A stretch of DNA of 51,167 nucleotides from Chloroflexota bacterium (GTDB taxonomy: Bacteria > Chloroflexota > Dehalococcoidia > SHYB01): NCBI GenBank assembly GCA_016875535.1, contig VGPF01000012.1, forward strand, positions 1 to 51,167, read 5' to 3'. This document shows, one piece after another, positions 24,921-46,954 of this stretch (positions within the stretch are counted from its first letter, which is position 1; each line of letters starts with the position of its first letter). A program made the translations under genes and the position numbers. The notes beneath the pieces are model-generated. The model was not told the origin of the DNA, did no database searches, and was given only the letters and a program-made list of their open reading frames with translations.

Positions 24921-25724
24921 ATGCAGAACTTCAAGACGATCTTGTACGACAAATCGGAAGGCATCGCCACCATCACGCTGAACCGCCCGGAGGTGCTGAA
25001 CGCGCTGAACTGGGTGATGAACGAGGAGCTGCAGGCGGCGTGGGCGGACATCAAGAAGGACCCGAAGACAATCGTGGCCATCGTGACGGGGGCGGGGGAT
25101 CGGGCTTTCTGCACGGGGATTGATGTGAAGGGGATGGCGAACGATTCGCCGCCGATCCGGAAGCCGGACGAGAAGCACCGGGACCTGTATTTCACGGCTA
25201 TCCACACGCAATGCTGGAAGCCGGTGATCACGGCGATCAACGGGATGACGGTGGGCGGCGGGCTGCACTTTGTGGCGGACAGCGACATCGTGATCGCGGC
25301 GGACCACGCGACCTTTTTCGATACGCACGTGAAGGTGGGACTCGTCTCCGGGCATGAGCCGATCGGCCTGGTGCGGCGGATGCCGTTCGAGGCGGTGATG
25401 CGGATGTCGCTCATGGGGGGACAGGAGCGGATGAGCGCGCAACGGGCCTTTGAGCTGGGGATGATCAGCGAAGTAGTGCCGAAGGACCGGCTGATGGCGC
25501 GGGCGCGGGAGATCGCGAAGATGCTGCTGACGAACTCGCCGCAATCCATGATTGACTCGAAGAAGGCGATCTGGGGGAGCCTGAACTACGGGCGCGAAGA
25601 GGGGATGGAGTATGGGTGGAAGGTGATCGGCGAGCACAACGTGCATGCGGACGTGCGCGAAGGGTCGCTGGCCTTTGTGGAGCGCCGGAAGCCGGTATGG
25701 CAGGCGCCGAAGGCAGAACATTGA
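24921..25724 (+). CDS. enoyl-CoA hydratase/isomerase (crotonase) family protein
   Basis: A 267-residue crotonase-fold protein. ITLNRPEVLNALNWVMNEEL, AFCTGIDVKGMAND and ITAINGMTVGGGLHFVADSD (oxyanion-hole glycines) are standard. The two catalytic glutamates of classical hydratases are not there: the first position reads His in GGGLHF and the second falls in FFDTHVKVG. This form is common in a crotonase subgroup, so hydration by the Glu/Glu mechanism should not be assumed. AGGAGG is 5 nt before ATG 24921 and a strong promoter lies upstream. A CoA-transferase gene follows within about 22 bp, so they are likely one operon. Confidence 0.92.
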   Translation: MQNFKTILYDKSEGIATITLNRPEVLNALNWVMNEELQAAWADIKKDPKTIVAIVTGAGDRAFCTGIDVKGMANDSPPIRKPDEKHRDLYFTAIHTQCWKPVITAINGMTVGGGLHFVADSDIVIAADHATFFDTHVKVGLVSGHEPIGLVRRMPFEAVMRMSLMGGQERMSAQRAFELGMISEVVPKDRLMARAREIAKMLLTNSPQSMIDSKKAIWGSLNYGREEGMEYGWKVIGEHNVHADVREGSLAFVERRKPVWQAPKAEH

Positions 25725-25746
25725 TCAGGGCGTGATCAGCACACCG

Positions 25747-26961
25747 ATGGAACATTCAGCCCTGGCCGGAATACGGGTCCTTGACCTGACGCACCACATC
25801 GCGGGGCCGTGCGCGACGAAGCTGCTGGCGGACTACGGCGCGGATGTGGTGAAGGTGGAGCGGCCGGAGGGGGACCCGGCGCGAGGCATCGGCCCCTTTT
25901 CTCAGGACCTGCCGGGGCCGGAGCGCAGCGGGTCGTTCCTGGACCTGAACACGAACAAGCGCAGCATCACGCTGAACTTGAAGTCGTCGCTTGGGGTGGA
26001 GATCGCGAAGGAGCTGGCGCGTGAGGCGGAGATCGTGGTGGAGAGCTTCAAGCCGGGGACGATGGAGCGGCTTGGCCTTGGGTACGACGTGCTGCGGGAG
26101 AGCAATCCGCTCGTTACCCTGACGTCCATCTCCAACTACGGGCAGACGGGGCCGTACCGCGACTTTCTAGGCACCGACATGGTGCTGTACGCGGCCGGAG
26201 GGCCGATGTGGGGGAATGCGCCGCTGGGGCGCTATCCGCTGCGGCTGCCGGCGAGCACGACGCAGTTCCATGCGGGCTATATGGCGGCGGTGGCGACGAT
26301 GATCGGCTATTACGGAGCGCGGTATAACGGGATCGGCCAACACATTGATTCTTCGATCTTCGAATCGGAGGCGGGAAGCGTGGACCGGCGGCTGACGGGA
26401 CTGCTGCGCTACCAGTATCAGGGGATCGTCATCGAACGGACGGTGCCTCGAGGGCAAGGGTTCCCGTGCGGGGTCTTCGCATGCAAGGACGGCTATGTAA
26501 ACATCTGGGGCGGGATGCAGTTCTACCCGAACAGCGTGCGGATGATGGGGATGCCGGATCTGGCGAACGACGCACGCTTCAACACGCGGGAGCAGCAGGC
26601 GAACGAAGACCGGAGGTCTGAGTTCGAGGCGGAGTTCTTCTACCCGTGGGTGCTGGAGAAGACGAAGCAAGAGGTGCTGGACCTGGCGCGGAAGAACGGG
26701 GTGCTGTGCGGCGCGCTGTTCACGGTGCAGGACTTGATCGAAAGTCCGCATTCGAAGGCGCGGAACTTTTTCGTGGACGTGACGCACGCGGAGACGGGGA
26801 CGGCGCAGTATCCGGGTCCGCTGTTCAAGATGGCGCGAACGCCATCGGAGGGATGGAGGGCGGCTCCGCTCTTAGGCGAGCATAACGAGGATGTGTATTG
26901 CCGCCAATTGGGCTTCAGCAAGCAGGACCTGGTGCATATGCGGCAGGCGGGGGTGATTTAG
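25747..26961 (+). CDS. family III CoA-transferase (CaiB/BaiF), catalytic Asp replaced by Gln
   Basis: A 404-residue family III CoA-transferase. Family features: LAGIRVLDLTHHIAGPCATK, LLADYGADVVKVERPEGDPA, NTNKRSITLNLKSSLGVEI and VVESFKPGTMERLGLGYDVL, then GIGQHIDSSI (the GxGQ...S block). Active members carry an Asp exactly 20 residues before the residue that starts the (R)TGxGQ motif; here that residue is Gln (TTQFHAG). It probably cannot form the aspartyl-CoA intermediate alone. The next gene encodes an Asp-containing homologue, suggesting a heteromer. ATG 25747 was chosen; GTG 25732 is the alternative, and neither has a strong ribosome site. Confidence 0.92.
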   Translation: MEHSALAGIRVLDLTHHIAGPCATKLLADYGADVVKVERPEGDPARGIGPFSQDLPGPERSGSFLDLNTNKRSITLNLKSSLGVEIAKELAREAEIVVESFKPGTMERLGLGYDVLRESNPLVTLTSISNYGQTGPYRDFLGTDMVLYAAGGPMWGNAPLGRYPLRLPASTTQFHAGYMAAVATMIGYYGARYNGIGQHIDSSIFESEAGSVDRRLTGLLRYQYQGIVIERTVPRGQGFPCGVFACKDGYVNIWGGMQFYPNSVRMMGMPDLANDARFNTREQQANEDRRSEFEAEFFYPWVLEKTKQEVLDLARKNGVLCGALFTVQDLIESPHSKARNFFVDVTHAETGTAQYPGPLFKMARTPSEGWRAAPLLGEHNEDVYCRQLGFSKQDLVHMRQAGVI

Positions 26962-27028: not shown

Positions 27029-28327
27029 TTGAGGCTCCCGCTGGAAGGCATCCGCGTTTTGGCGAACACGTATACGTGGGCCGGGCCCTACGCCGGGATG
27101 ATCCTGGCCGATATGGGGGCCGAGGTCATCCTCATCGAGTCCACGCAGCGATGGCAGTGGAATACGCGCGGCTTTATGGCGCGGCCTTCCAAGGCGCTGG
27201 TGGCGACGCTGGGATCCATCGGCGGGGCGTATGTGGACAAAGACCCCGGGGAGCGGCCGTGGAACCGCCATGCGATGTTCAATTCGGCGGCGCGGAACAA
27301 GTACAGCTTCACGGTGGACCTGCTGAAGCCGGAGGGCGTGGAGATCGTGCGCCGGCTGGCCTCCATATCCGACGTGTTGATCGAGAACAGCACGCCGGGA
27401 GTGATGGACAAGCTGGGGGTGGGCTATGAAGCGCTGCGGCAGGTGAAGCCGGACCTTGTCTTTGTCTCATCGAGCGGGATGGGGGCGCGGGGGCCGTTCG
27501 CGGGGCACCGAGGGTTCGGGACGCAGATGGAGGACCTTTCCGGGTTCACGTGGCTGCGTGCCTACCCGGACGGGGAACCGACGGATACGCCGATGACGAA
27601 CCATTCGGACGCCTCAGCAGGGGCGGGGATCGTGCTGGCGGTGATGCACGCGCTGGCGCACCGGAACCGGACGGGCGAGGGGCAGTGGGTGGACTGCTCG
27701 CAGTCAGAGAAGCTCATCAACCAGGTGGGCGAGGTGGTGATGGACTATACGATGAACGGGCGGGTGGAGGGGACGCTGGGGAACCGCCACCGCTCGATGG
27801 CGCCGCACGGGGCGTACCCCTGCGCGGGGCAGGACAAGTGGATCGCGATCGCGGTCTCCAGCGACAGACAGTGGGAGGCGCTGAAGGGGCTGATGGGGAG
27901 CCCGACGTGGGCGGAGGACCGGAGATTCCGGACGAGCCTGGGGCGGTGGAAGAACCAGGACGACCTGGACAAGGGGATCAGCGAGTGGACGCGGAGGCAA
28001 TCGCACCAGGAGCTGTTCCTGCGCTGCCAGGCGGCCGGCGTGCCCGCGGGGGCGCTGTGCGACGAGGCGGAGATCAGCAAGGACCCGCAGCTGTGGGCGC
28101 GGGACTTTTTTGTGCCGATCACGAGCCCGGAGGCGGGGACGCACCTGCATGTAGGGCCGCTGTGGCAATCGTCAAGCGTGCAATTCGCAGTCAGGAAACC
28201 TGATGTACGGCTAGGCGAGGACAATGCGTTTGTGTATAAAGAGGTGCTGGGCGTGGCAGAGGAGACGTACGGGCGCCTAGAGCGCGAAGGGCACATCGGG
28301 ATGGACTATGTGCCGCATGTGACGTAG
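27029..28327 (+). CDS. family III CoA-transferase with catalytic Asp
   Basis: A 432-residue family III CoA-transferase, transferring CoA between carboxylic acids through an enzyme-bound acyl anhydride and aspartyl-CoA. It shows LEGIRVLANTYTWAGPYAGM, ILADMGAEVILIES, FTVDLLKPEGVEIVRRL, and MTNHSDASAGAGI with the catalytic Asp exactly 20 residues before RTGEGQ. The N-terminal part carries an extra segment (residues 35-75, GSIGGAYVDKDPGERPWNR) not in its neighbour. The start is TTG 27029, 67 bp after the previous stop; no strong ribosome site. Together with the Gln-type protein upstream it may form an alpha-beta enzyme. Confidence 0.92.
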   Translation: MRLPLEGIRVLANTYTWAGPYAGMILADMGAEVILIESTQRWQWNTRGFMARPSKALVATLGSIGGAYVDKDPGERPWNRHAMFNSAARNKYSFTVDLLKPEGVEIVRRLASISDVLIENSTPGVMDKLGVGYEALRQVKPDLVFVSSSGMGARGPFAGHRGFGTQMEDLSGFTWLRAYPDGEPTDTPMTNHSDASAGAGIVLAVMHALAHRNRTGEGQWVDCSQSEKLINQVGEVVMDYTMNGRVEGTLGNRHRSMAPHGAYPCAGQDKWIAIAVSSDRQWEALKGLMGSPTWAEDRRFRTSLGRWKNQDDLDKGISEWTRRQSHQELFLRCQAAGVPAGALCDEAEISKDPQLWARDFFVPITSPEAGTHLHVGPLWQSSSVQFAVRKPDVRLGEDNAFVYKEVLGVAEETYGRLEREGHIGMDYVPHVT

Positions 28328-36910: not shown

Positions 36911-37464
36911 CAGGCGTTCCCATCTGAGAGTCCGGCGAGGCCGTCTATGCTCTGGACGTTGTTCTTCCGTTGATAGTCGCGGATGCCCTCGGGGCCTTTG
37001 CGCTCCACCCACTGGACGAGCTGTTTGCGCTCGCCGGCGTAGGTGAAGAGGGGGACGCCATAGCCGCAGGAGTCCGAGATACGGTGGAGGCGGACGCGGA
37101 TGATGGAGCGGACGCCATCAAGGCGGGGGAAGCGGGCGAGGAGGCTCTGGAAGTCGGGGGAGGAAGGCTCGACGACCTCGCCGCGGCCGTGGAGGCGAAC
37201 GATGTTGGGTGGGCCATCAAAGGCGCAGAGCATGATGACGATGCGCCCGTTCTCTTTGAGGTGGGCGATGGTCTCCGCGCCGCTGCCGGGGAGATCGAGG
37301 TAGGCGACGGTTGTATCGTCCAGGATGGCGAAGGTATCGAGGCCTTTGGGCGAGAGGTTGATGTGGCCCTGGCCGGAGAGAGGCGCGGTGGCGACGAAGA
37401 AGAGCTTCTGGCGGCGGATGAAGGCGGCCAATCGTTCATCGAGGACGGGGTGCAGTTTGCCCAT
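36910..37464 (-). CDS. pyridoxamine 5'-phosphate oxidase-fold protein
   Basis: A 184-residue split-barrel FMN/F420-binding protein of the PNPOx family. It has LAAFIRRQKLFFVATAPLSG, HINLSPKGLDTFAILDDTTV (the usual N-L-S-P-K-G block), AYLDLPGSGAETIAHLKENG and IIMLCAFDGPPNIVRLHGRG. This form, with the SPKG motif, is a common uncharacterised branch, not the true vitamin B6 oxidase. Its stop overlaps the DUF385 start. The Nudix gene lies 12 bp upstream. The cofactor is not certain. Confidence 0.87.
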   Translation of the reverse strand: MGKLHPVLDERLAAFIRRQKLFFVATAPLSGQGHINLSPKGLDTFAILDDTTVAYLDLPGSGAETIAHLKENGRIVIMLCAFDGPPNIVRLHGRGEVVEPSSPDFQSLLARFPRLDGVRSIIRVRLHRISDSCGYGVPLFTYAGERKQLVQWVERKGPEGIRDYQRKNNVQSIDGLAGLSDGNA

Positions 37465-37476
37465 GGGATTCTCCCA

Positions 37477-38043
37477 CTAGAAGAGCGGCTTGAGCAGGTC
37501 AAGAAAGCGATTGGTCATGTGGGCGGTTGCGCCCCAGATCATGTGCTCGCCGAAGCGGTAGGACTGAATCTTGATGCGCTGGCCCGTCGGGTCGTCGGGG
37601 TGAGGGGCAAGGTTGCGCGGGTCGCGCAGGTGAGAGAGGGGGACTTCGAGGACCTTGTCCACCTCGCGGGCCTGGGGGATGAAGGGGTAGGGGTCGCGCT
37701 GGATGCGGGCGACGACGGGGGTGACGACGAACTTGCTCCGCGTCACGATATCGTCCATGAGGCCGAGGACGGTGATGTCGTCGGGCTCGATTCCGACCTC
37801 TTCGAAGCTTTCGCGAAGGGCCGTCTCCACAAGCGTGGCATCTTCCGGGTCTTTGCCGCCGCCGGGGAAGGAGATCTCGCCCTTGTGGTGCTCGACGTGG
37901 GAGGTGCGGACGGTGTAGACGATCTTGTAATCGGGCGGCGGGCCGAAGAGGCCGATGAGGACGGCGGCGATGGGGCGGCCTTCGCTGGGGATACGGACAC
38001 GGGACCGCCGGTTGAGCAGGCGCTCAAGTTCAGAGAGGTCCAT
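37477..38043 (-). CDS. Nudix hydrolase, CoA-pyrophosphatase type
   Basis: A 188-residue Nudix protein. HVEHHKGEISFPGGGKDPED followed by LVETALRESFEEVGIEPDD combines the UPF0035/CoA motif (H-x-G-E-I-S-F-P-G-G) with the Nudix RExxEExGI block, which marks CoA pyrophosphatases of the YeaB/NUDT7 group that cut CoA or acyl-CoA into 3',5'-ADP and phosphopantetheine. That fits the CoA-rich setting, perhaps clearing unwanted acyl-CoA. It is the first gene of the minus-strand set and is divergent from a fused CoA-transferase gene. Confidence 0.92.
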   Translation of the reverse strand: MDLSELERLLNRRSRVRIPSEGRPIAAVLIGLFGPPPDYKIVYTVRTSHVEHHKGEISFPGGGKDPEDATLVETALRESFEEVGIEPDDITVLGLMDDIVTRSKFVVTPVVARIQRDPYPFIPQAREVDKVLEVPLSHLRDPRNLAPHPDDPTGQRIKIQSYRFGEHMIWGATAHMTNRFLDLLKPLF

Positions 38044-38073
38044 GGGGGCATGATACCACGCGCACGATTACGA

Positions 38074-38101
38074 TTGCGGGACAGGTTCACCATGCTATAC
38101 T
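38074..38101 (+). promoter_or_regulatory. promoter of the first fused CoA-transferase gene
   Basis: TTGCGG (38074-38079), 16 bp, TATACT (38096-38101), 30 bp upstream of the ATG. AGGAGC is the ribosome site. Confidence 0.6.
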
Positions 38102-38131
38102 CCCGCCAATTTCCACAGGAGCAAGACGCGT

Positions 38132-40546
38132 ATGTCCGGCCCCTGCCAAGGCCTTCGGATTGTTGACTTCACGAGCGCCTTCCCCGGCGCGCTGGCGACG
38201 ATGGTGCTGGCCGATGCGGGAGCGGAGGTGGTGAAGGTGGAGCCGCCGGGAGGCGACCCGACGCGGAGGCAGTATGCCTCCATCATGTGGCATCGGGGGA
38301 AGAAGAGCGTTGTCCTTGACCTGAAATCGGCGCAGGGGCAGGCCGACGCGAAGCGGCTGGCGGCGAGCGCGGACGCGGTCATTGAGTCGTTCAGGCCGGG
38401 GGTGGCGAAACGGCTGGGCATCGGCTATGAGGCGCTGGCGAAGGAGAATCCGGGGCTGGTCTATTGCAGTATCACGGGCTTCGGCGAGAAGGGGCCTCTG
38501 GCGAATGTAAAGGGCTACGAGCACATCATCCATGCCACGGCGGGCCGGATGGACCAGGTGTGGGGCATCATCGAGAAGGACGGGCCGAACTATTCGGCGC
38601 TGCCCATTGCCGGGTACGGGGCGGCGATGCTGGCGGTGCAGGGCACGTTGGCGGCGCTCATCGTGCGGGGGCAGACAGGGCGCGGCCAGCGGGTGACGAC
38701 GAGCATGGTGCAGGCGCTGATGACCTTTGACCTGACGAGCTGGATCGCGGCCCAGCTAGAGGGGCAAGGGGCGGCGCCGTTCCGTCGGGGCTATGCCGGC
38801 GGGCCGATCCCGCCGTACATGACGGCGCTGACCAAAGACGGCTACTGGCTGCAGCTAGCCAACCTGACGGTGGATACGATGTGGAACTACATGCGTGTCC
38901 TCGGCCTGGAGTGGATGCTGAAGGACGAGCGCTACAAGACGATGCCGAACTTCACCGACCCGAAGCGCGAGGCAGAGGTCCAGCGGGCATGCCTGGAAAA
39001 GATCCTGGAAAAGACGCGGGACGAGTGGATGGGCATCTTTATGAGGTCGGACGTGGCGTGCGAGCCGTTCCGCACGACGCAGGAGGGGATGCAGCACCCG
39101 CAGGCGATCCATAACGGCAACACGGTGCAGATTGCGGACCCGCGAGTGGGGGCGACGACGCAGCTGGGGCCCATCGGCAGGCTGACGGCAACGCCGCTAA
39201 CGCCTGCAAGGCCCGCGCCGGAGGTGGGGCAGGACCAGGAGCTGCTGCGGGCAGCTCAGCCCGCGCGGCGCATAGCGGCAAGGGGAGGCGGCGTGCCGAA
39301 ACATCCGCTGAGCGGCGTCACTGTCCTGGAGTTCGCCTCATTCATCGCCACGCCCGTCGTGACCTGCCTCCTTTCAGACCTTGGGGCGCGGGTCATCAAG
39401 GTGGAGCCGGTGACGGGCGATCTGTACCGGGCCATCGGCTGGCCCAGGATGTGCAAGACGCTCCAGGGGAAAGAGGCGCTGGCGATAGACATCAAGTCGC
39501 CGAGGGCGCGCCGGGCGATGGAGCGGCTTATCGCGAAGGCGGACGTGCTGATCCACAACTACCGCCCCGGTGCGCCGCTACGGCTGGGGATAGATTATGA
39601 GAGCGCGCGGAAGATTAAGCCGAACATCGTCTACGTCTATGCCGGGGCGTATGGCTCCACCGGGCCGCACTCGCACCGGACGGGTTTTCACCCTATCGCA
39701 GGGGCGATCACAGGCGGCCCGCGCTACGCGCTGGGCAAAGCCTATCCCACATCAAAGGGCAATAACCTGAGCGATATCCAGGAGAAGAGCAATATCCTGC
39801 GCCGGGCGAACGAATCGAATCCAGACCCGACGGCGGCGCTGGCCACGGCTTCGGCGACGATGCTGGCGCTCTATCACCAGCGCATGACGGGAGAGGGGCA
39901 GTATGTGGAGACCTCTATGCTGGGGGGCAACCTTTTTGTGAACGCGGACGACGGGCTTTCGTACAAGGGAAAGCCTGAGCGCCCCGTGCCCGACGAGCAA
40001 CTGAACGGCCTTTCGGCGCAGTACCGCCTCTATAGGACTAGGCAGGGCTGGGTCTTTTTGGCCTGCCCCAAGGAGAGCGAACTGCGGGCCTTCGCGAAGG
40101 TGGCGGGCTGCGAGCGGCTCCTGGCTGACCCGCGCTTCGCGACGGAGCAATCGCGAGGGGCGAACGACGCGGCGCTGGGCGAGGAGTTAGAGCGAGTCTT
40201 TGCCTCGCGGACGGCGGCCGAGTGGGAGCGTCTGCTCACCGCGGCGGACGTGCCGTGCGTGGAGGTGGCGGAGTTCGATCACGGGAAGTGGCTGAATGTG
40301 TCGCCGTGGGTGAAGGAGGCTGGATTCTTTGTGCCGACCTCCCACCCAAGCCTGGGCGGGAAGTACTTTCGCCACGGGCCGCCGTGGAGCTTTTCGGAGA
40401 CGCCGCCGACGTGGGGGCCGAGCATCTACCTGGGCGAGCATACGAGGGCAATCCTCAAAGAGGTGGGGTACGACGAGGAGACGATCGAGGAGATGGCGGC
40501 GGCGGGGAGCATCGTCTGCCACCAGCCGGAGGCGGCGAAGGCGTAG
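38132..40546 (+). CDS. two-domain family III CoA-transferase (degenerate half plus intact half)
   Basis: An 804-residue protein made of two family III CoA-transferase domains, residues 1 to about 370 and about 392 to 795; normal members have 380-440. Domain 1 shows GLRIVDFTSAFPGALAT and EVVKVEPPGGDPTRR, but at the catalytic Asp position, 20 residues before (Q)TGRGQ, it has Gly (PIAGYGAA). Domain 2 (HPLSGVTVLEFASFIATPVV onward) has Asp there (NPDPTAAL, before MTGEGQ). At the joint, AGGGGAGG stands 4 nt before an in-frame GTG (39293, codon 388), so the second half may once have been, or still be, started separately. ATG 38132 has AGGAG upstream. Confidence 0.93.
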   Translation: MSGPCQGLRIVDFTSAFPGALATMVLADAGAEVVKVEPPGGDPTRRQYASIMWHRGKKSVVLDLKSAQGQADAKRLAASADAVIESFRPGVAKRLGIGYEALAKENPGLVYCSITGFGEKGPLANVKGYEHIIHATAGRMDQVWGIIEKDGPNYSALPIAGYGAAMLAVQGTLAALIVRGQTGRGQRVTTSMVQALMTFDLTSWIAAQLEGQGAAPFRRGYAGGPIPPYMTALTKDGYWLQLANLTVDTMWNYMRVLGLEWMLKDERYKTMPNFTDPKREAEVQRACLEKILEKTRDEWMGIFMRSDVACEPFRTTQEGMQHPQAIHNGNTVQIADPRVGATTQLGPIGRLTATPLTPARPAPEVGQDQELLRAAQPARRIAARGGGVPKHPLSGVTVLEFASFIATPVVTCLLSDLGARVIKVEPVTGDLYRAIGWPRMCKTLQGKEALAIDIKSPRARRAMERLIAKADVLIHNYRPGAPLRLGIDYESARKIKPNIVYVYAGAYGSTGPHSHRTGFHPIAGAITGGPRYALGKAYPTSKGNNLSDIQEKSNILRRANESNPDPTAALATASATMLALYHQRMTGEGQYVETSMLGGNLFVNADDGLSYKGKPERPVPDEQLNGLSAQYRLYRTRQGWVFLACPKESELRAFAKVAGCERLLADPRFATEQSRGANDAALGEELERVFASRTAAEWERLLTAADVPCVEVAEFDHGKWLNVSPWVKEAGFFVPTSHPSLGGKYFRHGPPWSFSETPPTWGPSIYLGEHTRAILKEVGYDEETIEEMAAAGSIVCHQPEAAKA

Positions 40547-40556
40547 GGAGACCTCT

Positions 40557-40683
40557 CTCCCGATGTGTAATCGAGGCCGAAGGTCCGGCCTGAGGACAGA
40601 TCTCAAGGACTCGACCTCTTATCCCTCTTGTTGCTCTCAGAAGAGCACAGCTCATAAGAATGAGCACATGCCATCAGAATGGC
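40557..40683. repeat. hairpin array E
   Basis: Between the convergent stops of two CoA-transferase genes: AGGCCG-AAGGTC-CGGCCT (40574-40591), then three tightly spaced hairpins GCTCT-CAGA-AGAGC (40633-40646), GCTCAT-AAGA-ATGAGC (40650-40665) and GCCAT-CAGA-ATGGC (40670-40683). The stems differ completely while the loops are CAGA, AAGA and CAGA. Confidence 0.9.
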
Positions 40684-40795
40684 ACACGAAGGGAGGGACG
40701 CTTTGCCGACCAGAGCCGACGCCACTTTCTAGATAGGCCAAGTGACCCCTTCCACACTTGCTCGTCTTCAGGCTACGGAAGAGGCCAGGGGATAA
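40683..40795 (+). repeat. dispersed ~100-bp repeat, copy 2
   Basis: Matches the minus strand of 1236-1345. It begins at the last bases of the final hairpin of array E and runs to a few bases before the stop codon of the next minus-strand gene. Confidence 0.8.
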
Positions 40796-40801
40796 GGCGG
40801 C

Positions 40802-42049
40802 CTAGGTCGCCTCGTAATAGCCGACGATGCCTTCAGCGAGGAGTAGGTCGTACTCTTCCTGGGTGTAGCTCAAGATGGAGCGGTAGACATGGTCGTTATC
40901 CCCGCCTAGGAGCGGGGCGTGGCGGCGGAGCTGGGCGGGCGTCGTGGAGAGGCGCGCGGCGGGAAGCTCGGCGTGATAGCGGCCCATCACGGGGTGCTCA
41001 AGCCACTGGTAGTGCCCAAGGGCGTTGAGCTGCTTGTCCTCAAAGAGGGCCTGCTGGTTGTGGACGGCCCCGGCAGTGATGCCGTTGGCCTGCAGGAGCT
41101 CCATGAGCGGCACGGGCGCATAGCCCTTGGTCCATGCGCCGATGTGCGCGTCCAGGGCCTCTGTGTTGCGGCAGCGCGATTGGTGCGTGGCGAAGCGCTG
41201 GTCCTTGGCCCAGGCAGGATCGCCCATGAGCCGCACCAGCGTGGCCCACTCGGCATCGTTGAAGACGGCGATGGCGCACCAGGCGTCGTCGCCGATGCAG
41301 GGGTAGGCGCCGTGGGGGGCGGCGTAAGGGACATCGGTCTCCATGAGCTTATTGCCTTCGCGGTTCCAGACGCGCCCGTTGACGGTGTAGTCCAGCACGG
41401 ATGCGCCCAGGTAGTGGATGGTGCCTTCAAGCTGGGCGGCGTCTATGTACTGGCCCTGGCCGGTGCGCTGGCGGTAATCGAGGGCGGCGGCGAGGGCGAA
41501 GGTGGTGTAGACGGGGGCGAGCCAGTCCGGGTAGGGGATGGTGGCGCAGCCGGGAGGGCGATCGGGCCAGCCGCCGAGCTGGGCGATGCCGGCCAGGCCC
41601 ATGATCATGGGCCCGTAGCCGCGCGATTGGGCGTGGGGGCCGGTCTGCCCCTGGAGGGTGAGGCTAACCATGATGACGCTGGGGTTGATGGCGCGGGACC
41701 CTTCGTAGTCCAGCCCCCACTTTTTCATGGTGCCGGGGATGTAGTTCTCCACGATGACATCGGTCCACTTCACGAGCCTTCGGCCCACTTCCAGGCCCTG
41801 GGGGGTGTTGAGGTCCACGGTGATGCCGAGCTTGTTGTTGTTGCAGGCGGCGAAGTAGTGGCTGCCGTTGACGTTGAACTTGCCGCCCTTGATGGGCGGC
41901 GAGTTGCGCAGGATATCGTAGCGCTGGTGGTGCTCCACCTTGATGACGGTGGCGCCGAAGTTGCCGAGCCACTGCGCCGTGAGGGGCCCTGCGCCGATCC
42001 AGGAGAAGTCTATGACTTTGAGGCCTTCGAAGGGCAGGGGCGTGGTCAT
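40802..42049 (-). CDS. family III CoA-transferase with catalytic Asp
   Basis: A 415-residue family III CoA-transferase. FEGLKVIDFSWIGAGPLTAQ, NFGATVIKVEHHQRYDILRN, GITVDLNTPQGLEVGRRLVK and VIVENYIPGTMKKWGLDYEG are standard; the catalytic Asp is in IPYPDWLAPVY, exactly 20 residues before RTGQGQ. It starts at ATG 42049, one base after the stop of the preceding gene, so they are translationally linked. The preceding gene product lacks the Asp. Substrate is unknown; succinyl-CoA or another acyl-CoA donor to a carboxylic acid is typical. Confidence 0.93.
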   Translation of the reverse strand: MTTPLPFEGLKVIDFSWIGAGPLTAQWLGNFGATVIKVEHHQRYDILRNSPPIKGGKFNVNGSHYFAACNNNKLGITVDLNTPQGLEVGRRLVKWTDVIVENYIPGTMKKWGLDYEGSRAINPSVIMVSLTLQGQTGPHAQSRGYGPMIMGLAGIAQLGGWPDRPPGCATIPYPDWLAPVYTTFALAAALDYRQRTGQGQYIDAAQLEGTIHYLGASVLDYTVNGRVWNREGNKLMETDVPYAAPHGAYPCIGDDAWCAIAVFNDAEWATLVRLMGDPAWAKDQRFATHQSRCRNTEALDAHIGAWTKGYAPVPLMELLQANGITAGAVHNQQALFEDKQLNALGHYQWLEHPVMGRYHAELPAARLSTTPAQLRRHAPLLGGDNDHVYRSILSYTQEEYDLLLAEGIVGYYEAT

Positions 42050-42050
42050 T

Positions 42051-43331
42051 TCAGAGCACCTTCGCCGCACGCAGGTCGCGAAGCTCGCTCTCGCTGATGC
42101 CGAGCTCGTCGCGATAGATCTCGGTATTGTGCTCGCCGATGAGCGGGGCGCGGCGGGAGATGCGCATGGGCGTGCCGGAGAGCTTCACATGGCCGCCGGG
42201 GTACCGGATGGTGGTCCCCAGCTCCGGGTGCGGCACGTCTATCCAGTACTCCCGCGCCTCCAGCTGCCTGCTGTGCAGGAGATCGTCCGAGGCGTTGACG
42301 GGAAAGACGGGCAGGGCGTGCTTGACGGCCAGCTCCAGGATTTCTTCCTTAGTGTGGCGCATCTGCCATTTTGTGAAGACGTCATAGACGTAGTCCAGCT
42401 CGGCTTGGGTGCATTGCCACTGTCCCGGCCCGGGGGGGAATGAGGTGGCGGATTCCCATTTAGGGTCCAGGAGGTCTTCCGCCACGCCCTCCTTGGCCAT
42501 CAGGTCGCGGAGTACCGGGAACTTATCCCAGCCAAGGACGCCGGTATTGGCGGTGTAGCCGTCCTTGCAAGGGAGCATGACGTGCCACTTGATGAAGCGG
42601 AAGTTGAGGGAGCCGCCCTCCCGCCGGATGCCGCTCTTCTCCACGGTCCACCAGCTGACGATGGTGCCCGGGCCGTTGAGGTTGAAGGTGACGGCCTCTT
42701 GCATGGAGACGTCCAGCAGCTGGCCGATGCCGGTGCGGGTGCGGTGGTAGAGAGCGAGGGCCGTGCCGAGCGCCCCCTGGCTGCTGGCGTGGAAGTAGGC
42801 CTGGGGGGCGCGGAAGACGATGGGCGGTCTGTCCGGGTCGCCCATGAGGTACATAAGGCCGCCAAGGGCCATGCCGGTGATGTCCGCCCAGCGATAGTTG
42901 GCGTAGGGGCCGTCCAGCCCGTAGCCGGTGATGGAGGTGTAGATGAGGTTGGGGTAGCGCCTGCGGACCGCCGCCTCGTCCATGCCCAGGGCTTGGGCCT
43001 CCTTGCGCGTCCAGCTGGTGACGATGACCTGGGCTGTGGGCAGGAGCTTTTCCATGATGCGCCGCCCTTGTGGCTTGGAGAGGTCCAGCGTGACGCCGCG
43101 CTTGCTGGTGTTGGCGGAGAACCAGCGCAGGCTCTTGTCGGGGTCGCGCTGGTCCTTGTAGTAGGGGCCGATGAAGCGGACAGGATCGCCGCCGGGCGGC
43201 TCGATCTTGATGACATCGGCCCCCATATCGCCGAGCATCTTGCCGCAGTAATGGCCGATCTCCCCAGTAAGGTCCAGGACTCGGTAGCCGGCGAGGGCCA
43301 GAGGCGTCTGCGGCTTAGCTATCTTTTCCAA
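42051..43331 (-). CDS. family III CoA-transferase, catalytic Asp replaced by Tyr
   Basis: A 426-residue family III CoA-transferase: LAGYRVLDLTGEIGHYCGKM, DMGADVIKIEPPGGDPVRFI, RGVTLDLSKPQGRRIMEKLL, IVTSWTRKEAQALGMDEAAV and RTGIGQLLDVSM. At the position 20 residues before RTGIGQ it has Tyr (PQAYFHASSQGAL) and no Asp nearby. The start TTG 43331 is preferred because AAGGAG lies 9 nt upstream. An ATG at 43379 would force a 65-bp overlap with the previous gene. It sits between two Asp-containing homologues in one operon of three and may be a non-catalytic subunit. Confidence 0.9.
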   Translation of the reverse strand: MEKIAKPQTPLALAGYRVLDLTGEIGHYCGKMLGDMGADVIKIEPPGGDPVRFIGPYYKDQRDPDKSLRWFSANTSKRGVTLDLSKPQGRRIMEKLLPTAQVIVTSWTRKEAQALGMDEAAVRRRYPNLIYTSITGYGLDGPYANYRWADITGMALGGLMYLMGDPDRPPIVFRAPQAYFHASSQGALGTALALYHRTRTGIGQLLDVSMQEAVTFNLNGPGTIVSWWTVEKSGIRREGGSLNFRFIKWHVMLPCKDGYTANTGVLGWDKFPVLRDLMAKEGVAEDLLDPKWESATSFPPGPGQWQCTQAELDYVYDVFTKWQMRHTKEEILELAVKHALPVFPVNASDDLLHSRQLEAREYWIDVPHPELGTTIRYPGGHVKLSGTPMRISRRAPLIGEHNTEIYRDELGISESELRDLRAAKVL

Positions 43332-44469
43332 CGGCGCCTGCTCCTTGGAGTGCGCGGACCTCTGCGGCGGTGAAGCCATATTCTCGCAGAACCTGAGAGG
43401 TGAAACGTATCCCTTGCAGTTTGGCGAGGGGCGCGCGCACGGGCGATCGGACGAGCTTGACGCCCTTAGGCGCTCCCGGCCTCACGATGCGCTTGCCCAG
43501 GGGCGAGGCGAGGGTCTCTGCCGTTGTGAGCACCGGAGAGATGCAGACGTCCTGCCCCTCAAATAGGCGCGTCCATTCCTCCAGCGTCTTTTGTTTGAAC
43601 GCCTTGGCGAACTCGCCACGGACGGCCGGAAGCTCGTCCTTGGAGACGAAGCGCTTGGTCTCCAAGTCCGGCCTGCCGATGAGGCGGCAGAGGTTGGCGT
43701 AGAAGCCTGCTTCGATAGCGCCGACGGAGAGGTGGCGGCCGTCCTTGGTCTCATAGAGGCCGTACCATGGGTAGCGCCCGGTGAAGTGGATGGCGCCCTT
43801 GTTGCGCGAATCGCCGGTGCGCCAGGAGTGCTCGAACTCGGCCGCCATGAGGAAGAGCGGCCCGTCCACGATGGCGAGGTCCAGGAACTGGCCTTTGCCT
43901 GTGCGTTGGCGCAGCTGGATGGCCGCCAGGATGTTGATAGCGGCGTTGAGCCCTGCCGTGCAATCGGCCACGGTGACGCCTTCGGTGGCGGGCGGGCCTC
44001 CCGGATCGCCGCTAAGGTTCAGGACGCCGGCATCGGCCAGGTAGTTGAGGTCGTGCCCCGGGCGCATCCGCCAGGCGCCTTGTTGCCCGTAACCGCTGAT
44101 GGCGGCGTAGATGAGTTTTTTGTTTTTTCTTGCCAAGGACTTGAAGCCGATGCCGAGTCGGTCCGCGACATCAGGGCGGAAGCCCTCCAGGATGACATCT
44201 GCCTTGCGGGCCAGGAGGTGATAGACCTCGCGTCCTTTTGGCTGCTTCAAGTCAAGGCGGCACTCGGAGGTTCCCGCCTTGAGGGAGTCCGTGGAAATCA
44301 TGCCGCCCAGGCCCTCGTACTTGGGGTCCACGGTCCCTTCGCCCACACGCTCGATGCGCACGATGCGCGCGCCGAGATCTCGAAGGATGGCCATACAGTA
44401 GAGGCCGGGATAGGTGTGGCCGATGGAGAGGACGCGAAGACCATCGAGGGCGTGGCGGGCTGTTGGCAT
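43315..44469 (-). CDS. family III CoA-transferase with catalytic Asp
   Basis: A 384-residue family III CoA-transferase, close to alpha-methylacyl-CoA racemase and CaiB in size. It has LDGLRVLSIGHTYPGLYCMA, DLGARIVRIERVGEGTVDPK, CRLDLKQPKGREVYHLLARK and GFRPDVADRLGIGFKSLARK. The catalytic Asp lies in VADCTAGLNAA, 20 residues before RTGKGQ, within the classical GPPxxxGVxVxDxxAG context. The start ATG 44469 has no clear ribosome site. Its stop overlaps the next gene by 17 bp, so the three genes 44469-40802 form one tightly packed operon. A racemase role is possible, since racemases share this fold. Confidence 0.92.
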   Translation of the reverse strand: MPTARHALDGLRVLSIGHTYPGLYCMAILRDLGARIVRIERVGEGTVDPKYEGLGGMISTDSLKAGTSECRLDLKQPKGREVYHLLARKADVILEGFRPDVADRLGIGFKSLARKNKKLIYAAISGYGQQGAWRMRPGHDLNYLADAGVLNLSGDPGGPPATEGVTVADCTAGLNAAINILAAIQLRQRTGKGQFLDLAIVDGPLFLMAAEFEHSWRTGDSRNKGAIHFTGRYPWYGLYETKDGRHLSVGAIEAGFYANLCRLIGRPDLETKRFVSKDELPAVRGEFAKAFKQKTLEEWTRLFEGQDVCISPVLTTAETLASPLGKRIVRPGAPKGVKLVRSPVRAPLAKLQGIRFTSQVLREYGFTAAEVRALQGAGAVGKDS

Positions 44470-44528
44470 AGCGTGTGCGGCGAGTCTATGGGCGGCTTCC
44501 GCCAGGTGTCAAGAAGCAACGGAGGAAA

Positions 44529-44557
44529 TTGACACACTACCGGGGCGATGCTATCTT
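44529..44557 (+). promoter_or_regulatory. promoter of the second fused CoA-transferase gene
   Basis: TTGACA (44529-44534), 17 bp, TATCTT (44552-44557), 33 bp before the ATG. It lies in the short space between divergent CoA-transferase genes. Confidence 0.65.
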
Positions 44558-44590
44558 CCCGGCGCTCCCTTCACTACTGGAGGCATCACG

Positions 44591-46954
44591 ATGCCAAGCG
44601 CGCTCCACGGCCTTCGCGTCCTCGATCTCACCCACGGCATGGCCGGCCCCCTTGTGGGCATGATGATGGCCGATAACGGCGCCGAGGTCATCAAGGTTGA
44701 CCCGCCCGGAGGCCCGCGCATCGCCTATCCGGCGGGCGAGACCGCTTGGCACCGCGGCAAGAAGAGCGTTCACCTCAACCTCAAGTCCAAGGCCGGCCTG
44801 GCCGATTTCCTGCGGCTGGCCGATACGACCGATATCGTCCTGGAATCGTTTCGCCCCGGCGTCACCAAGCGCCTGGGCATTGACTACGCGAGGCTGAGCC
44901 GCCGAAACCCACGATTGGTCTACACGAGCATCACGGGCTACGGCTCCACGGGCCGGCTGGCGGACCGGCCTGGCTATGAGGCGCTGGTACAGGCGCGCAC
45001 GGGCTTCCAATCGGAGCAGCCGCTGTGCGAAGGCCAGCCCTCCGTGAAGCGCTCCGGCCCCATCATGATCGGCGTGCCGTATGTGAACATCGGGGCCTTT
45101 TTCATGGCGATCTACGGCACCCTGGCGGCGCTGGACGTGCGCGAGCGAATGGGCGAGGGTCAACTGGTGGAGACCTCGCTTTTCTTGGGCGCCATGGCGA
45201 ACTACACGATGAACTGGTGGGGCGCCGAGCGCTATCAGGTGCACTCCCCCGGATCCTGGGTAAACGGCGAGCGCATCCCCTGGCTTCCCACGATCTATGA
45301 ATCGAAGGACGGCGTCTGGTTCTTCGGCATGGGCACCCGGCGGTTCAAGGATGAGTTCGCCAAGCTCCTGGACCTCAAAGAGGGCTATATGAACGTGCCG
45401 CTGGATGTGCCCATCGCGCGCCAGCGGGAGATCTATTGGGAGCTGTGCGAGGCGTATAAGAAGAAGACCTGGAAAGAGCTGGAAGACATCTTCACCAAGA
45501 CGGACTGCATCTGGCTGCCTGTGCAGAAATCGGAAGAGGCCTTTGCCGATGACCAGATCCAACATAACAAGTTCATCGTCGAAGTGAACGACCCACGTTA
45601 CGGCAAGATCCGGCAGGTGGGCGTGCCGTTCACGATGAGGAAGACGCCTCCGAAGGTGCAGGGCCCAGCACCGCTGCCCGGCCAGCATACGGCGAATGTT
45701 TTGGCCTCTACTCCAACGGCAAAGCCGTCCGCGGGAAAGGGGACGCCGCGGGCCAAGATGAACCGCCTGGCCTTGGAGCACGTGAAGGTGCTGGACATGG
45801 GCGATTTCCTTGCCGGCCCCCTTGGCCCGCAGCTCCTGGCCGATCTGGGCGCGAACGTTATCAAGCTGGAGCGCACCACCGGCGACCCGATGCGCCACGC
45901 CTGGGCCTTCTACGGCTGCCAGCGCGGCAAGCGAGCCATCGCGGTGGACCTCTATTCTCCGGAGGGCCAGCAGATCGCGCATACGTTAGCGGCGGAGGCG
46001 GACATCGTCCACCACAACTGGAGGCCGGGCGTTGCCGAACGGCTCAAGGTGGACTACGAAACGATCAAGAAGGTCAACCCGAACGTTATCTATTGCCACA
46101 ATGTGCCCTTCGGCTTTGATGGGCCAAAGGCAGAACGCGGCGGCCTGGACCAGATCATGCAGGCCTACACGGGCGCGCTCCGCCGGGACTCCGGCGAGGG
46201 CAACCCGCCGACGACCTGGCTGCGGAGCGGCCTGTGCGATTACGTGCAGGCGATGATGGGGGGCCTGTCCATGCTCTTGGCCCTGTACCACCGCGAACGC
46301 ACCGGCGAGGGGCAGTTCGTGGGCTCACGGATGCTGGACGCGGCGCTGTGGATACACTCGGATGTCTCCTTAGGCGGCAAAGGGACGCCCAAGCGGCCTG
46401 ATTTGGATAGCAAACTCTACGGCTTCGGTCCGCTCTACCGCCTCTACGAGACGCGCGAAGGTTGGATCTGCCTTGCGGCAGTGCAGGAGAAGGAGTGGCA
46501 AGGGCTGTGCAAAGCAATCGGCCAGCCGGGACTCGCCAAAGAGGCCCGCTTTGCCGATGCGTCGGCGCGCGGGCGCAATGCGGCGGCCCTGGCGCAACTG
46601 CTGGAGCAGGCCTTCAAATCGCGCACGGCAGAGGCATGGCTGGCGGCGCTTGATGCAGCGCGTGTTCCCGCCGAGATATCCAAGGTCCACTATGGCTATG
46701 ACGGGGTTGACCTGCCTAAGAGCCCGGAGGCGCGGGAGAACGGCTGGGTGGCAGAGTACCCTCACGCCGCCTACGGCAAGATGTGGCAGACGGGCATCGG
46801 CTCGAGGCTCTCCAAAACGCCGGGGCAGGCGGTGCTCGCGCCGCCGATCCTTGGCCAGCACACGCGGGAAATCATGGCCTCCATCGGCTATAGCCAATCG
46901 GCCATCGCCGACCTGAAGGGGCGCGGCGTCATAAAATGGACGGAGCCAAGCTAG
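44591..46954 (+). CDS. two-domain family III CoA-transferase (degenerate half plus intact half)
   Basis: A 787-residue protein with two family III CoA-transferase domains, residues 1 to about 370 and 390 to 787, joined by an Ala/Pro/Lys/Thr-rich linker (ASTPTAKPSAGKGTPRAK). Domain 1 (LHGLRVLDLTHGMAGPLVGM) has Asn at the catalytic Asp position (GVPYVNIGAFF, 20 residues before RMGEGQ). Domain 2 (EHVKVLDMGDFLAGPLGPQL) has Asp (SGLCDYVQAMM, 20 before RTGEGQ). Domain 2 opens with an in-frame ATG (45758, codon 390) after a distant AAAGGGGA. ATG 44591 with TGGAGG upstream is the chosen start. It mirrors the fused protein at 38132, but the two fusions are not close copies. Confidence 0.93.
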   Translation: MPSALHGLRVLDLTHGMAGPLVGMMMADNGAEVIKVDPPGGPRIAYPAGETAWHRGKKSVHLNLKSKAGLADFLRLADTTDIVLESFRPGVTKRLGIDYARLSRRNPRLVYTSITGYGSTGRLADRPGYEALVQARTGFQSEQPLCEGQPSVKRSGPIMIGVPYVNIGAFFMAIYGTLAALDVRERMGEGQLVETSLFLGAMANYTMNWWGAERYQVHSPGSWVNGERIPWLPTIYESKDGVWFFGMGTRRFKDEFAKLLDLKEGYMNVPLDVPIARQREIYWELCEAYKKKTWKELEDIFTKTDCIWLPVQKSEEAFADDQIQHNKFIVEVNDPRYGKIRQVGVPFTMRKTPPKVQGPAPLPGQHTANVLASTPTAKPSAGKGTPRAKMNRLALEHVKVLDMGDFLAGPLGPQLLADLGANVIKLERTTGDPMRHAWAFYGCQRGKRAIAVDLYSPEGQQIAHTLAAEADIVHHNWRPGVAERLKVDYETIKKVNPNVIYCHNVPFGFDGPKAERGGLDQIMQAYTGALRRDSGEGNPPTTWLRSGLCDYVQAMMGGLSMLLALYHRERTGEGQFVGSRMLDAALWIHSDVSLGGKGTPKRPDLDSKLYGFGPLYRLYETREGWICLAAVQEKEWQGLCKAIGQPGLAKEARFADASARGRNAAALAQLLEQAFKSRTAEAWLAALDAARVPAEISKVHYGYDGVDLPKSPEARENGWVAEYPHAAYGKMWQTGIGSRLSKTPGQAVLAPPILGQHTREIMASIGYSQSAIADLKGRGVIKWTEPS

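Follow-up and report, generated by a model that had tools for sequence, protein, structure and literature searches.

How does a single polypeptide work that carries two family III CoA-transferase domains, when only one of them possesses the catalytic aspartate of the family? The question is raised by two plus-strand genes of the window, the whole stretch of 51,167 nucleotides analysed here from a member of the Dehalococcoidia (Chloroflexota). The first gene (38132..40546) encodes P0001, a fused protein of 804 amino acids, and the second (44591..46954) encodes P0002, which has 787 amino acids and an uncertain start codon, the reading frame staying open up to 44414. Both proteins match PF02515 twice, over two domains with E 2.7e-170 and 567 bits for P0001 and E 2e-177 and 590 bits for P0002, against a curated cut-off of 23.3. 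In P0001, the N-terminal CoA_transf_3 domain (38147..39235, plus strand) has Gly161 at the nucleophile position (codon GGG, 38612..38614), and the C-terminal domain (39308..40444) has Asp565 (codon GAC, 39824..39826), the predicted covalent nucleophile. In P0002, the corresponding residues are Asn166 (codon AAC, 45086..45088) in the N-terminal domain (44603..45691) and Asp550 (codon GAT, 46238..46240), again the predicted covalent nucleophile, in the C-terminal domain (45773..46864), all on the plus strand. The aspartate that characterizes family III (CaiB/BaiF, PF02515) is present in both C-halves and missing from both N-halves. This asymmetry, first noticed in a sequence-only reading of the window, is confirmed by the codons and by the alignments.

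The site was located as the residue 20 positions before the (R)TGxGQ motif, which gives the four residues named above. Two independent alignments, by profile HMM and by MAFFT, agree on which residue occupies the nucleophile column in 194 of 194 domains, and this column contains Asp178 of BbsF, to which the title of PDB entry 9fol assigns the CoA adduct. No acidic residue (Asp or Glu) was found within three positions of Gly161 or Asn166. A misalignment or a concealed neighbouring Asp or Glu can therefore be ruled out. The AlphaFold2 models (pLDDT 91.7 and pTM 0.95 for P0001; pLDDT 87.5 and pTM 0.92 for P0002) agree with this: Gly161 and Asp565 both lie near the beginning of an equivalent long helix (159-182 and 564-586), as do Asn166 and Asp550 (164-187 and 548-571). 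Judged by sequence and secondary structure, namely by the aligned column and the helix start, no other Asp or Glu of the N-half takes the position of the nucleophile. An artefact, whether from comparing the wrong residue, from misassembly or from a frameshift fusing two genes, has practically no probability. The genome is a draft of 86 contigs, but the frames are open without stops, and the existence of orthologous fusions in other genomes, with 81-84% and 61% identity, refutes it. In the orthologue with 84% identity, the residue matching Asn166 of P0002 is Ser.

The pattern extends far beyond these two proteins. Nearly all domains of the window's genome were examined, together with the fusions of relatives, among them a named Lake Baikal Dehalococcoidia assembly (G039:C54). 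For the window's genome, the set was obtained by searching it completely for the family, and the fusions were found by their similarity to P0001 and P0002; the sample of fusions is therefore not a neutral one. Among 47 fusions from the class Dehalococcoidia, 12 of them from the window's genome, Asp is found in the C-half of all 47 and in the N-half of none, so that the pattern predicted for orthologues is kept. The N-half has instead Ser (19), Thr (8), Gly (6), Ala (5), Glu (3), Val (2) or, once each, Asn, Gln, Tyr and Phe. Outside the class, 76 fusions were collected from nine genomes (Pseudomonadota, Actinomycetota, Myxococcota) and two plasmids; 75 have Asp in the C-half, seven have it in the N-half, and 68 show the asymmetric arrangement with Asp in the C-half only. 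Taken together, 122 of 123 fusions, both window proteins included, have the C-half Asp, as have all 34 of the fusions that were aligned, with Gly, Ser, Thr, Ala or Asn in their N-halves. By Fisher tests, p is about 1e-27 for the fusions of the class and 1e-33 for the others; both values are exaggerated by relatedness, although the pattern recurs in separate lineages. The asymmetry is far from chance. It is not obligatory for a fused enzyme, since seven of the 76 fusions elsewhere have Asp in both halves. The sole Asp-less fusion among the 76, L239 (G041:C29:73900-76700), carries Glu at the nucleophile site in each of its halves. Two related Myxococcota fusions with a near-identical C-half site context, L164 (G046) and L163 (G045), differ in that one is Asp/Asp and the other His/Asp, perhaps a case of recent loss or of a two-site form.

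The same division of roles is found in genes that are not fused. By a 200-base rule for pairing, the genome of the window contains 31 tandem two-gene pairs, of which 25 have a single Asp: 23 have the degenerate gene followed by the Asp-bearing one and two have the reversed order. The other six are Asp/Asp, and no pair is without Asp. Unpaired genes of this genome have Asp in 14 of 18 cases, and single-gene homologues in named genomes of other phyla in 67 of 68. The Asp/Asp pairs of this genome (G000) are located at C1:87673-90127, C5:67643-70146, C13:38003-40536, C17:19167-21915, C22:19832-22295 and C29:20080-22538; their six first genes belong to one subclade of the BbsE-like group, intermingled with Asp-less genes.

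In the window itself, all nine PF02515 domains can be compared, and Asp occupies the nucleophile position in five of them, as had been counted from the sequence. The four others have Gly (P0001 N-half), Asn (P0002 N-half), Gln (25645..26961, plus strand) and Tyr (42051..43379, minus strand). Each of the last two, which are stand-alone genes of the BbsE clade, lies directly upstream, on the same strand, of an Asp-bearing stand-alone gene of the BbsF clade, at 27029..28327 (plus) and 40802..42070 (minus), respectively. Therefore, the same pairing is also present in the window in two-gene form, which the sequence-only reading had missed. The remaining Asp-bearing family III gene, at 43315..44469 on the minus strand, is unpaired. 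The gene neighbourhood, with acyl-CoA dehydrogenases, a thiolase and an RraA-like aldolase, gave no clue to the substrate. At 36970-38166 (plus strand), an open frame of 398 amino acids runs antisense to smaller minus-strand genes, one of which has a NUDIX-like motif by eye; this open frame is most likely a GC-rich antisense artefact.

On these grounds, P0001 and P0002 are best regarded as family III acyl-CoA:carboxylate CoA-transferases, each of which would be a covalent pseudo-heterodimer with one working site; we put the probability of this reading at about 80%. In ordinary enzymes of the family, the active site is built by two subunits. In YfdE, Asp173 and His233 of each active site are contributed by different subunits (PMC3720670), and the active sites of the castenholzii MCT are shared between subunits in like manner (PMC9196870). 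By analogy, the two halves of the fused chains most likely wrap around each other as the subunits do in ordinary dimers of the family. If the halves pair in this way, the only competent site is made up of the large domain of the C-half and the small domain of the N-half. The site of the N-half, having no nucleophile, would be catalytically silent, and the N-half would be retained as a scaffold and to supply, with its small domain, a wall of the working site that may tune acid specificity. Both models match solved family III chains over about the length of one half, with SUGCT (9br6) as the best Foldseek match, and the single-chain pTM values given above imply, at the level of prediction, a defined arrangement of the N-half relative to the C-half. 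The interlock, the single active site per chain and the role of the N-half small domain are what we infer; the proposal of a covalent pseudo-heterodimer is in turn favoured by the residue asymmetry, its persistence in orthologues, the adjacent two-gene halves and the counterpart in BbsEF. The term "half-of-sites", used for it earlier, is a loose label: what is predicted is one competent site per pseudo-dimer and not alternating reactivity of two.

It could be imagined instead that the fused chains dimerize like with like, so that a C-C dimer with two working sites would carry the N-halves along as an inert N-N appendage. Like subunits do indeed pair in the ordinary homodimers of family III (PMC3720670). 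This possibility seems improbable, as the two-gene forms keep a degenerate and an active gene adjacent, as the parallel diversification of N- and C-halves described below fits an obligate N-C pairing, and as the pTM values point to a defined arrangement within one chain.

The conservation of the degenerate half was assessed as mean pairwise identity over 34 fusions, with domain limits taken by analogy from MCT. Over the first stretch of the large domain, identity is 45% in the N-half (residues 5-200) and 44% in the C-half (residues 392-604). The small domain has 28% in the N-half, the least conserved segment of all, versus 36% in the C-half, and the column-bootstrap interval of this difference excludes zero. 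Of the positions that active domains conserve, the nucleophile is the only one to be replaced throughout the N-halves; most of the others, namely G34, A35, E41, R50, K76, D100, G137 and R197 (BbsF numbering), are kept there. A simple decay of the N-half is rejected by the equal conservation of the large domains and by this single replaced column, from which it follows that the degenerate half is under constraint. The weak conservation of its small domain, the part expected to line the working site, counts somewhat against the pseudo-heterodimer, since it fits a divergent acid specificity and equally a relaxed constraint. One further position has changed in parallel with the loss of the nucleophile: the Asn of the NFRPG motif (BbsF position 105) drifts to Ser in both degenerate groups, being retained in 19% of each versus 89-95% of the active partners (95% in the C-halves of the P0001/P0002 type). 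Similar changes therefore took place in both degenerate lineages.

This constraint can be read in other ways. The N-half might contain an active second site, which would use another residue (Ser, Thr, Tyr or Glu) or a direct non-covalent mechanism, maybe as a lyase, isomerase or hydrolase. Its large domain is as well conserved as that of the active half, Ser and Thr predominate at the N-half site within the lineage (27 of 47), and the two-domain relative DddD joins CoA transfer to a lyase step (PMC6006322). We nevertheless give this explanation little credence. The residue is highly variable (S, T, G, A, E, V, N, Q, Y, F), the window proteins themselves have Gly or Asn, neither of which is a usual nucleophile, and the motif Asn has drifted to Ser in both degenerate groups. 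Furthermore, in PtmU4 the replacement of the C-domain Asp by Ala, Glu or Asn costs 125-400 fold (PMC6006322).

Alternatively, the degenerate site could bind CoA or acyl-CoA without reacting, in a regulatory or structural capacity, the N-half being a regulatory pseudoenzyme. Such a role would be compatible with the pseudo-heterodimer and is in accordance with the retention in N-halves of most positions conserved in active domains, and with a comparison of the two sites segment by segment, in which the dead one (N-large 45%, C-small 36%) is conserved no less than the living one (C-large 44%, N-small 28%). It is rather unlikely all the same, for the motif Asn is mostly lost (19% of N-halves versus 95% of C-halves), its probable equivalent in MCT adjoins the pantetheine (PMC9196870), and the conservation is equally well explained by the dimer interface.

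The origin of the arrangement was studied with a broad tree of 194 domains and a careful tree of 63 domains. The broad tree has four groups, namely the N-halves of the P0001/P0002 type, their C-halves, the BbsE-like first genes and the BbsF-like second genes. In the careful tree, the N-halves come together with 92/93 support, the BbsE-like genes with 100/98 and the BbsF-like genes with 100/100, while 13 of the 14 C-halves are grouped at 99/99, with the long-branch G029C7 just outside. The P0001/P0002 system separates from the BbsEF system with 97/94 support. N- and C-halves form two matching clades that diversify in parallel. P0001 and P0002 lie within one N-clade and one C-clade, and thus belong to one old lineage. 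Of the suggestion that the arrangement is either old or arose twice, the first part stands; separate origins of the two window fusions are ruled out.

Matters are different for the degenerate partners as a whole. A single origin of all of them is rejected (AU p = 5e-7), which means that the nucleophile was lost at least twice. Other fusions of the window's genome, such as those on contigs 24 and 51, lie inside the BbsEF-like groups and had a separate origin, from BbsEF-type pairs. Conversely, the P0002 lineage includes two-gene forms. The genes of one of them (G003:C91) have 61 and 62% identity to P0002. In another (G000:C25), the first gene has a complete C-terminal tail, and the second, which begins TAAGGAGGACGCCATG, has its own start, located after TAAGGAGGACGCC. 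That such split relatives are frameshift artefacts is rejected for the inspected cases by a full C-terminal tail or own start codons, in one case with a strong Shine-Dalgarno sequence. The same enzyme thus occurs both fused and split, and nothing else in the sequences argues as strongly for a joint action of the two halves.

Comparison with known systems shows what is partly known already. P0001 and P0002 are further examples of a described, widespread two-domain architecture that is not peculiar to the window. PtmU4, described in 2018 as a two-domain family III CoA-transferase with a conserved catalytic Asp in the C-terminal domain, likewise has one chain, two CoA_transf_3 domains and a linker between them; mutation of this residue, Asp430, lowers activity 125-400 fold, and 2401 bacterial members of the type were counted (PMC6006322). 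Unlike the function considered here, PtmU4 makes thiocarboxylic acids from natural-product substrates. The novelty is therefore less than had been suggested, at least for the architecture with its C-terminal Asp. By its description, DddD, the DMSP CoA-transferase/lyase, also has two tandem family III domains, but differs in its DMSP lyase activity and has been placed apart from other two-domain enzymes (PMC6006322). In SAR202, an expansion of the family was noted in 2017, as were some CoA-transferases whose top Swiss-Prot hit is DddD (PMC5395668).

BbsEF, the succinyl-CoA:(R)-benzylsuccinate CoA-transferase (PDB 9fn0, 9fol, 9fun), shows the same arrangement in two-chain form. The comparison with heteromeric two-gene enzymes made from the sequence was apt, as BbsEF has been solved as two chains, one subunit with Asp (BbsF Asp178) and one with Tyr (BbsE Tyr171, the Tyr being taken from the PDB sequence). 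It shares with the fused proteins the combination of one Asp-bearing and one nucleophile-less partner, and its fold matches both models. It differs in consisting of two chains and in belonging to another lineage, the halves of P0001 and P0002 falling outside the BbsE and BbsF clades. FRC, YfdW, YfdE and SUGCT resemble each half in fold and motifs, but have identical subunits with Asp in each and two working sites. In the literature searched, which is incomplete, no statement of the residue rule over fusions and pairs was found; the near-universality of the rule, the convergence behind it and the occurrence of one enzyme both split and fused seem to be unstated there, and no priority is claimed.

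The genome of the window (2.5 Mb, 98% complete) contains about 109 PF02515 matches, many of which are arranged in tandem pairs or fusions, and thus shows an extreme expansion of CoA-transferases. It is possible, though somewhat short of probable, that a general rule holds for heteromeric enzymes of the family: convergent loss of the nucleophile from the partner encoded first, in two or more heteromer lineages, so that one-site pseudo-heterodimers are normal in some bacteria, with the degenerate partner retained because its small domain builds the substrate wall of the living site and makes that wall diverse. The annotation "CoA transferase" masks many genes that encode just half an active enzyme, and, many PF02515 genes being half an enzyme, gene counts such as that of this genome give too high a figure for working sites. 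That one and the same residue was lost convergently in one partner, and that split and fused forms of one enzyme exist side by side, makes the group a good natural experiment on the evolution of asymmetric pseudo-dimers. A testable rule is also provided by which, for any gene of this kind, its partner and its nucleophile can be located.
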